A DNA stretch of 64,000 bases from Nitrosopumilales archaeon (lineage in GTDB: Archaea; Thermoproteota; Nitrososphaeria; Nitrososphaerales; Nitrosopumilaceae): positions 1 through 64,000 of the forward strand of contig JAEHKU010000004.1 of the NCBI GenBank assembly GCA_016838825.1. Direction: 5' to 3'. Positions 61,033 to 64,000 of this stretch are shown piece by piece. The position numbers were made by a program, and so were the translations under genes. Under the pieces are notes generated by a model. The model had not been told where the DNA came from. It made no database searches and worked only from the letters and a program-made list of their open reading frames with translations. Numbering within the stretch: the stretch's first letter is position 1; every line of letters begins with the position of its first letter.

Positions 61033-63693
61033 TCATGAATTCTTAATCATAACTTTTGTAACAATTGAGGCTTCACTATCAATAGGCTGATCTAGAGCGT
61101 TAGTTTCCAAGGAAGCAATTTTGTCCACAACGTCTTGACCTGATATCACTTCACCAAATATTGTGTATTGGCCATCTAACCATGGCGCATCATCTAGCAT
61201 TATGAAGAACTGTGATCCTGCACTATTAATGTCAGGGCCACGAGCCATAGATACAATGTATTTTTTATGTTGCAGATTGCTAAATTCTTGTGTTATTGTG
61301 TAACCTGGATCACCAGTACCCCACGTATCACGTGAACCCGTGATCGTGTTTGGATCTCCGCCTTGAATAACAAAACCAGGAACTATTCGGTGGAATAATG
61401 TTCCATCAAAAAATCCAGATTCTGTAAGTTCCTTAAAGTTAGCAACAGTTCGAGGTGCTACATCATCCTTGAAAGCAATTTCTATATCACCAAAGACTGT
61501 TGTTAAAACTGCTGTTTCCCCACTTGGTTTGAAATTTGTTTTTTCAATAGACAATTCATAATCATGATTAACTTCGTAAATCAGGACGCCAGAAATTATA
61601 CCAGCATCATTTCTGTTAATGCTTGGTGATTCATAAGCTAGTTTTAAGGGACCATCTCCCGTCGAAAAATATTTGATATCTTTTACATAAACCGGTTCAA
61701 AACCTGGTAGGAAAACATTTGTTTCTAACTCAGATATCTCATCTAAATAGAAAACTGGAGTGAAAGGAATCATTTTCCCTGCTAGTGTATTCTCCCAAAA
61801 GTAGTCATTTGGGTAATAGTCTTCATGAAGGTATTGTAGAGTGTTTTCTCCAGATATTCGAATAATCCAAAACATTTTGCTCTCCTCTCCACCACCTCCT
61901 AGGAAATAAAGTGGTTCTTCACCTACGTCTGTAATTCTTTGACCTACTACATATATCAGAACATAGTCCGCCTCTAGATCTTGTAGAATCTTCCAGGCTT
62001 CACTTTCATTACTCACAAACATTTTTGCAAGTTGTTCAATTCTTTCTGTAAATAGTGTAGAGTTATCAGCCAGAGTTGTTCTTTCGCCGATTGTTGTTAT
62101 CCAGTAGCCATAATCCCACCATGAAGCTATTATTGCATCCTCAGGCGTATTATTTTTTATCCAATCTAATGCTACAAACCAGTCATCAGAAGCAAAATCA
62201 AAATTTGAGCCTCCATGAAGGATCGTAGGCGGTGCTTTTACAAAGTCAAGCAAGTTAGCGTTAACTGGAAAAACTGTTGGCAGCAAAAGTAGTATAATTA
62301 TCACTACCACATAAGAAATTTTATTTAGAGCTCTTGGGAGTTTCAGAACTTTTTTGTCCTTGATTAAACTATTTCCTAACATTTCAGAAGTTAAAATGGC
62401 CAAGCCAACTGATGAAAGAATGATTATACCAATAGATGAAAATAATTCCAATCGAGCGAAAGCAGAGCTAGCGTAAACCCCAACCAATCCTATAATTAAT
62501 GCAAAGACCATCATCTCATTTTTAATATGAACTGGTAACTTGCCCTTTTGATTATCCGTTGACCTTCTGAAAATAAACCAAACTCCAAGACCTGCAAAGA
62601 GAAGTAATACAGGCGTAGTTGTAAAAGTCTGTGCAACTGTTAGTGTAAGATGCTCTGCAACTGAAGCCGTAAGAACATCCTCTGTAGTTAAGAATGGATT
62701 TATTGCGTTAAGGTATCGAAATGTTGGTAATGTTAAGACGTTCGATGCAAGTAGTGCAATGGTTCCAATAATGGATATACTTAGGAATCCCAAACCATTA
62801 CGAATCCAAGTTTTTTCATTCTTGCTGAATTTGCGAATAATTGTCAGAATTACTAAAAATATTGTAGGTCCAAATAACCCAAAACCTCCAAATCCAACAA
62901 TAAAATCTATCCCAGGTCTCTCAAATGCTAATAAAGTAGTAAAGATTGTGACAACAAATAATGGCACAGCCCAAATCAGAAAATTGTGATCTTTTCTGAG
63001 GAAAGGAAGTGCTACAATAAACAAGCCTATTGGAATTACAAAGAATTGGTTTCCTCCCCATGCTGATAATCCAAAAGTCATGAAAACTCCTGCGGCAACT
63101 AATTTTGCAAAAGCAACCTTATGATTATCTGATTTCAGTCCGCTCAGAAATAGGTAAAGTGCTAAAAGTGAATAAAAAAGGCCAACTGGTTCTGATTTGA
63201 ACCAACCTATTGTACCCCTGATAATTAATGGTAGTGAGAGTGCAAAAAAAAGCGAGGCGAAAAGACCGGCGGTGGTACCACCCATAACACGAACAAGAGC
63301 AAATATAATTACAACAGTAAGTGAGGCAAAAATAACTGGAAGGATAATAGTAAAGTCATAAAGACTAGTTCCAAGACCGAAAATTTGGTACAAGAATGCT
63401 GCTGTAACATGTAACATGACCTGCGAAGTAGCTGATATGTTTCTGCCCCAAGGATACCAGCTCATATCGTCATGCCATTCTAGGTATTCATCTAAACCGT
63501 TTTCTACGAGAAATTCGGTAGCTCTATAATTAAAAAAAGGATCAAACTCGTTTAATTCAAAGCCATAATCGCCTGCTTGTGATCTAATTAGAGCTGACAT
63601 TGAAAAGGAGAGAGTAAGAATACCAATTATGAGCAGATGGTGCAAACGAAAATCAAAACTATAGACTGTGAATAATTTAGAATTAGAAACCAA
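61033..63693 (-). CDS. aglB: Oligosaccharyltransferase AglB (STT3) fused to a cyclophilin
   Basis: 886 residues in one frame. The N-terminal part has about 12 membrane helices and the extracellular loop with ELNEFDPFFNYRATEF (DxD-like metal site) near residue 42; the catalytic-domain motif WWDYG occurs near 522 in IASWWDYGYWITT. It transfers a lipid-linked glycan to Asn. From about residue 725 (61033-61521) follows a full cyclophilin: TLFHRIVPGFVIQGGDP, SAGSQFFIML and APWLDGQYTIFGEV, with the catalytic Arg and Phe present. This domain would sit outside the membrane. Confidence 0.9.
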   Translation of the reverse strand: MVSNSKLFTVYSFDFRLHHLLIIGILTLSFSMSALIRSQAGDYGFELNEFDPFFNYRATEFLVENGLDEYLEWHDDMSWYPWGRNISATSQVMLHVTAAFLYQIFGLGTSLYDFTIILPVIFASLTVVIIFALVRVMGGTTAGLFASLFFALSLPLIIRGTIGWFKSEPVGLFYSLLALYLFLSGLKSDNHKVAFAKLVAAGVFMTFGLSAWGGNQFFVIPIGLFIVALPFLRKDHNFLIWAVPLFVVTIFTTLLAFERPGIDFIVGFGGFGLFGPTIFLVILTIIRKFSKNEKTWIRNGLGFLSISIIGTIALLASNVLTLPTFRYLNAINPFLTTEDVLTASVAEHLTLTVAQTFTTTPVLLLFAGLGVWFIFRRSTDNQKGKLPVHIKNEMMVFALIIGLVGVYASSAFARLELFSSIGIIILSSVGLAILTSEMLGNSLIKDKKVLKLPRALNKISYVVVIIILLLLPTVFPVNANLLDFVKAPPTILHGGSNFDFASDDWFVALDWIKNNTPEDAIIASWWDYGYWITTIGERTTLADNSTLFTERIEQLAKMFVSNESEAWKILQDLEADYVLIYVVGQRITDVGEEPLYFLGGGGEESKMFWIIRISGENTLQYLHEDYYPNDYFWENTLAGKMIPFTPVFYLDEISELETNVFLPGFEPVYVKDIKYFSTGDGPLKLAYESPSINRNDAGIISGVLIYEVNHDYELSIEKTNFKPSGETAVLTTVFGDIEIAFKDDVAPRTVANFKELTESGFFDGTLFHRIVPGFVIQGGDPNTITGSRDTWGTGDPGYTITQEFSNLQHKKYIVSMARGPDINSAGSQFFIMLDDAPWLDGQYTIFGEVISGQDVVDKIASLETNALDQPIDSEASIVTKVMIKNS

Positions 63694-63722: not shown

Positions 63723-64000
63723 TTACTCTTTTGTAAGAATTTCCACGTCGCAGGAATTAACTAGATTCCTGAATTTCTTTGCATCTTGTTCTGTTCCAAC
63801 TATAGTACCATAATGCATTGGGATTGCTAGTTTAGGTTTAATTTTTTCTGTCGCCATAGCTGCTTCGTTTGCTGTCATTACATATGTACCGCTCACAGGC
63901 ACAAACAGAACATCTGGTTTGAGATCTGTCATTGGAGGAATTAAATCAGAATCTCCAGTGTGATAAAATGATGTACCATCAATACTAACTATGAAACCTA
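63723..64000 (-). CDS. Metallo-beta-lactamase-fold hydrolase, C-terminal part (runs off the right edge)
   Basis: The visible 92 residues belong to the C-terminal half of an MBL-fold hydrolase of the UPF0173 type: YHTGDSDLIPPM (metal-ligand Asp) near the edge, then VLFVPVSGTYVMTANEAA and KLAIPMHYGTIVGTEQDA, which holds the last His ligand, followed by a short tail EILTKE. The first metal motif (HxHxDH) lies outside the window. Ends 29 bases from the AglB start on the same strand. Confidence 0.8.
   Translation of the reverse strand, partial: GFIVSIDGTSFYHTGDSDLIPPMTDLKPDVLFVPVSGTYVMTANEAAMATEKIKPKLAIPMHYGTIVGTEQDAKKFRNLVNSCDVEILTKE

Follow-up and report, generated by a model that had tools for sequence, protein, structure and literature searches.

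An STT3/AglB oligosaccharyltransferase with a C-terminal cyclophilin domain in AOA

One gene in the window (the whole stretch of DNA analysed here, 64,000 nucleotides from a Nitrosopumilales archaeon) reads as an STT3/AglB oligosaccharyltransferase that runs on into a cyclophilin, which raises the question of whether the two halves truly belong to one protein and what a prolyl isomerase would do on the enzyme of N-glycosylation. We traced the gene to 61033..63693 on the minus strand, where it encodes 886 amino acids from a TTG start within a frame of 907 amino acids from stop to stop without interruption. An earlier note on this DNA had placed both proteins on one frame at these coordinates, and the unbroken reading bears this out, with no frameshift at the junction (about 61521), which by the note's own terms would have refuted it. 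The window protein matches Pfam STT3 (PF02516) at residues 47-380 (E 9e-26) and the AglB core at residues 518-580, the latter with 26.9 bits, slightly below the 27-bit cut-off. A nearly full-length match to Pro_isomerase (PF00160) follows at residues 730-872 (E 1.3e-44). Among solved sequences, STT3A/STT3 come closest to residues 1-630, and cyclophilins to residues 724-878.

The protein consists of four consecutive parts, all encoded on the minus strand. The STT3 membrane part (residues 1-485; 62239..63693), delimited by Pfam, model helices and hydropathy, has 13 predicted transmembrane helices and contains the EFDPFFNYR motif with the first-loop Asp (residues 49-57; 63523-63549) and the SVAEH motif (residues 344-348; 62650-62664). 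The extracytoplasmic C-terminal STT3 domain (residues 486-712; 61558..62238), defined by Pfam, the alignment and the model, holds the WWDYG motif (residues 525-529; 62107-62121) and the DK-like GGGGEESKMFWI (61864-61899), with EESK and K606. A short linker of low confidence in the model (residues 713-725; 61519..61557) leads to the complete cyclophilin domain (residues 726-886; 61033..61518), on which Pfam, the model, Foldseek and the alignment agree. Its motif HRIVPGFVIQGGD (residues 768-780; 61354-61392) includes the codon of the catalytic Arg769 at 61387-61389.

The AlphaFold2 model, built on an alignment of 72 sequences from relatives, has a mean pLDDT of 89.4 and a pTM of 0.78 and shows two well-formed domains with a low-confidence or disordered joint at residues 716-723. 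Its 13 long membrane helices end near residue 474, and the C-terminal STT3 domain holds strands at residues 577-708. The earlier note had contrasted the cyclophilin with the beta-rich end usual in AglB; that contrast falls away, since the strands are present and precede the cyclophilin, which is added after them and does not substitute for the STT3 C-terminus. Foldseek aligns the model with human STT3A over 727 columns (E 6e-30) and with Archaeoglobus fulgidus AglB (E 5e-19), and also with many solved cyclophilins at target TM-scores of ~0.8-0.9, with an rmsd of 1.2-2 Å for many. Hydropathy analysis of the window protein found no hydrophobic segment beyond about residue 485, and therefore the cyclophilin should lie on the same side of the membrane as the WWDYG domain. 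In STT3/AglB proteins, the side of the WWDYG domain is the outside. On this known topology, the cyclophilin is predicted to sit on the outer face of the membrane.

The GT-C fold, the PF02516 match and the 13 transmembrane helices, as seen by Pfam, the model and Foldseek, place the first half among the STT3/AglB/PglB oligosaccharyltransferases, as do the acidic residues of EL1 and EL5 (SVxEH) and the DK/MI-type motif. Across 72 aligned relatives, WWDYG (W525-G529), E347, H348 and K606 are invariant and D51 is nearly so. Thus the full STT3/AglB with WWDYG described earlier is present, and with its catalytic motifs intact it is a predicted transferase of lipid-linked glycans to N-x-S/T sites. The second half has the cyclophilin fold (PF00160 at 730-872; Foldseek), and the equivalents of Arg55, Phe60, Gln63 and Phe113 of human CypA are R, F, Q and F, in agreement with the complete domain, catalytic Arg and Phe included, that the earlier note had read. 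Among the fused copies in the alignment, the Arg55 equivalent is kept in 64/64, Phe60 in 63/64, Gln63 in 63/64, Gln111 in 64/64 and Phe113 in 62/64; two divergent long-branch copies have one change each (Phe60 to Tyr in L170, Gln63 to His in L206). The window protein has Tyr at the position of human His126, a feature it shares with almost every other archaeal copy sampled. The fused cyclophilin is predicted to be a catalytically competent prolyl isomerase. In the fused relatives, the mean pairwise identity is 59% for the cyclophilin half versus 54% for the STT3 half, and the identities of the two halves correlate (r = 0.86), while the linker, with its many T, S, N and P residues, varies between 15 and 101 amino acids. 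Judged by these identities, the cyclophilin tail is constrained at least as much as the transferase.

We collected 80 related loci from contigs of the genomes of GTDB species, and further ones from whole genomes. The architecture that the earlier note proposed to seek among archaeal STT3s recurs, with both halves in frame, at about 60 distinct loci in independent assemblies of ammonia-oxidizing archaea (AOA); close relatives are fused rather than carrying the two parts as separate genes. The lengths of the STT3 frames are bimodal (~700-825 versus 889-986 amino acids) in agreement with the clades across 101 genomes sampled from the class, where the few exceptions are frames cut by contig ends, and 33 additional genomes show the same split. 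Fused genera among the AOA include Nitrosotalea, Nitrosotenuis, Nitrososphaera and Nitrosocosmicus. A tree of STT3 with 135 rows places every fused gene in a single AOA clade (SH-aLRT 99). The fusion is found there in two small families, nearly all Nitrososphaeraceae, and the Nitrosotalea-like (Nitrosotaleaceae), Nitrosotenuis-like and window lineages; unfused AOA comprise a 52-row Nitrosopumilus/Nitrosarchaeum clade and smaller groups such as Nitrosopelagicus and Cenarchaeum. The tree needs eight changes between the fused and unfused states in all. Because STT3 is unfused in the outgroup families of the order and class, the most likely history, as read from these sequences, is one gain of the fusion in the AOA ancestor followed by several losses, the most notable of them in the marine Nitrosopumilus/Nitrosarchaeum clade, in which the gene without the tail often occupies the same syntenic locus.

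Gene order agrees with one gain and several losses. The genes for aIF2-gamma, upstream, and aIF2-alpha, downstream and convergent, flank 21 fused and 14 unfused STT3 loci (L208 and L211 are examples), and aIF2-gamma alone flanks a further 8 fused genes, including those of Nitrososphaeraceae, and 4 unfused ones; 10 unfused STT3 genes lie at other loci. A gene for an MBL-fold protein adjoins STT3 in 29/40 fused cases versus 1/49 unfused cases. This contrast could suggest that the unfused STT3 is a separate, relocated paralog, which is ruled out, as the same aIF2-gamma and aIF2-alpha genes flank both kinds. At the shared locus a PEBP-like gene replaces the MBL-fold gene, so many of the unfused STT3s are orthologues at the same locus minus the tail.

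Several observations accompany this distribution. In the window, the fusion shares its strand with an MBL-fold hydrolase gene (63723-64000) that is 30 bases upstream of it; another lies at L214:4727-5383, and many AOA keep such a gene beside the fused STT3, others having the PEBP-like gene instead. A Nitrosopolaris-like STT3 (L077) retains a tail rich in S, T and N that resembles the linker of the fusions but has no cyclophilin, and looks like a recent loss of that domain. Four genomes of family f2, genus g21 (G067, G077, G080 and G099), with a completeness of 97-99%, have no detectable STT3 and no cyclophilin, and the two may have been lost together. One contig labelled as a Chitinophagaceae bacterium (L047) carries a Nitrosarchaeum-like STT3 with archaeal neighbours and is a misbinned record.

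Other cyclophilins occur in these archaea on various supports. Most Nitrosopumilaceae have a small cyclophilin of about 160 amino acids, probably cytosolic, on a separate branch of the tree. The exported cyclophilins of unfused AOA are mostly ~500-600 amino acids long, with a signal peptide, the cyclophilin, a PsbP-like domain and an apparent C-terminal membrane segment; those of ~510 amino acids in Nitrosopumilaceae (L087, L090, L185-L193 and others) show a conserved CLIATAAYGSE (CFI-type) box and a C-terminal hydrophobic segment. Two genomes of genus g8 (G142 and G037), both with unfused STT3, encode exported frames of ~920-990 amino acids (L174:2650-5613 and L175; 923 codons in G037) that combine a cyclophilin with a glucose/sorbosone dehydrogenase and a DsbA-like thioredoxin; these frames are not STT3 fusions. 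In genus g22, three exported proteins of ~450-484 amino acids (L133, L143 and L190) end in a cyclophilin that is closest to the STT3-fused one of the same genus, which suggests that the fused domain was copied out into exported proteins. Outside the AOA, membrane-anchored frames of ~600 amino acids in family f42 of the same phylum (L215, L216 and L217) end in a cyclophilin and read like an extracytoplasmic fusion of an ABC solute-binding-protein-like domain with it. No cyclophilin frame longer than 700 amino acids was found outside this order among 300 genomes across the phylum Thermoproteota.

The best explanation of the fusion, which we hold with slightly better than even confidence, is an active prolyl isomerase or chaperone tethered outside at the oligosaccharyltransferase and acting on exported proteins. 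Held at the outer membrane face as the C-terminus of the AglB/STT3 chain, the cyclophilin would, by way of its flexible linker, reach exported polypeptides, for example S-layer proteins and multicopper oxidases, while these emerge from the Sec channel and move past the transferase. It would speed prolyl isomerisation or keep the chain unfolded, N-x-S/T sites would be glycosylated in that unfolded state, and the protein would then fold, so that the fusion would amount to a folding factor built into the enzyme of N-glycosylation. The position expected for the cyclophilin, outside and thus on the side of the transferase's active site, makes it plausible that isomerisation is coupled to glycosylation in this way. 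In the marine sister clade the fusion is absent and the exported cyclophilin is a separate protein; physical coupling would thus not be essential and would be dispensable over evolution. In a stronger form, which is possible though doubtful, prolyl isomerisation by the tethered cyclophilin would directly govern both the choice of N-x-S/T sites for modification by AglB and how the glycosylated S-layer assembles, all in a single polypeptide.

A folding-related enzyme is built into the eukaryotic OST as well. Its thioredoxin subunits OST3/OST6 (TUSC3/MAGT1) tune the folding of acceptor sites; they are oxidoreductases on a separate subunit, whereas in the window protein the added domain is a prolyl isomerase and belongs to the catalytic polypeptide itself. 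Compared with A. fulgidus AglB (3wak/7e9s), human STT3A (6s7o, 9n9j) and yeast STT3, the window protein has the same fold over ~720 columns and shares WWDYG, SVxEH, the first-loop Asp and the DK-like motif, but the chains in the list of PDB matches end after their own C-terminal domain and none has a cyclophilin. With PF00160 cyclophilins it shares the complete domain and the catalytic Arg, Phe and Gln, and it differs from them in that the domain is covalently placed at the C-terminus of a 13-helix membrane glycosyltransferase. NmPin of Nitrosopumilus maritimus, a parvulin at the membrane surface for which S-layer protein has been proposed as a substrate (PMC4922055), is likewise an extracytoplasmic, membrane-associated prolyl isomerase of AOA, but it is small, held by a lysine patch and has no link to the OST.

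The main rival, and a serious one because unfused lineages carry the same domain on other anchors, is that STT3 merely serves as a membrane anchor or export vehicle for a cyclophilin of general folding, the linkage having no mechanistic role. A separate exported cyclophilin is present in 23/23 unfused AOA genomes sampled (in one, G103, the frame is interrupted by a stop) versus 10/26 fused ones, and in outgroup families of the order, cyclophilins are preceded by one membrane helix at the N-terminus (L088, L123, L176 and L180). Fused cyclophilins alone are rejected as a clade (AU p = 0.006), but fused and exported cyclophilins together are compatible with one (AU p = 0.61), and therefore the domain has been copied or moved between anchors; in genus g22, a separate cyclophilin is the nearest to the fused one. 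However, the contrast of 23/23 with 10/26 (Fisher p 1.7e-6) is phylogenetically confounded and tree-independent pairs give it no support, so that the association is descriptive only, and we dropped complementarity of the fusion and the separate cyclophilin as a proof. Against the anchor alone also stand the ten fused genomes that keep the tail despite a second exported cyclophilin as an available anchor, and the retention of the fusion, in most cases at one syntenic locus, as the AOA radiated. In several high-completeness Nitrososphaeraceae genomes (G072, G082, G115, G189 and G201), the fused copy is the sole cyclophilin. On balance, we consider a mere anchor a possible explanation, well short of an even chance.

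The tail could also dock without catalysis, binding a peptide to position a substrate or a partner (Sec, S-layer) near the transferase. FKBP11, found at the human Sec61-OST-A translocon, apparently serves as an adaptor whose catalytic site is buried (PMC12804085); catalysis is thus no prerequisite for a PPIase to stand at the OST. FKBP11 resembles the cyclophilin tail in placing a prolyl-isomerase fold beside the catalytic subunit on the lumenal side; it is a separate, FKBP-type protein, whereas the window has a cyclophilin within the OST chain. The altered residues of L170 and L206 would fit docking, but a catalytic set that is nearly invariant, with Arg in 64/64 copies, is what one would expect of an active enzyme and makes this reading improbable. 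As for an assembly error or frameshift that merged two adjacent genes, the separate overlapping frames of STT3 and cyclophilin at one locus alone (L021), probably themselves a sequencing frameshift, weigh almost nothing against about 60 independent in-frame loci and STT3 lengths that track the clades, and we regard it as ruled out.

Published glycosylation data touch on the preferred reading, an active isomerase tethered at the transferase. Glycoproteomics found the S-layer and multicopper oxidases of Nitrososphaera viennensis to be N-glycosylated and its AglB (NVIE_RS12080) readily detected, and in Nitrosopumilus piranensis, whose genus is unfused, saw no glycosylation, with AglB scarce (PMC12153357). 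The AglB of N. viennensis is probably fused, judging from its relatives. The contrast between glycosylated and non-glycosylated goes with the split between fused and unfused, in these two species only.

The STT3/AglB and cyclophilin halves are each well known, and their covalent combination is apparently undescribed, as we found no published account of an STT3-cyclophilin fusion in the open-access literature searched. A survey of archaeal PPIases, curated from 122 to 106 sequences, mentioned cyclophilins with several domains, the cyclophilin domain being N-terminal (PMC8530231), and over-long sequences were dropped from a phylogeny of STT3 (PMC4973528). Filters of this kind would tend to hide the fusion, and we infer that they did.

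In eukaryotes, N-glycosylation and folding compete and cooperate through loosely attached accessory subunits. With the transferase and a prolyl isomerase encoded together in one gene that is widespread in AOA, archaea of global importance, the link becomes testable in one protein. Soil and freshwater AOA, with the fusion, versus marine AOA, without it, offer a natural comparison, in which S-layer glycosylation apparently differs too (PMC12153357). If the coupling is true, one polypeptide would do what eukaryotes approach with separate subunits of the OST and the translocon.
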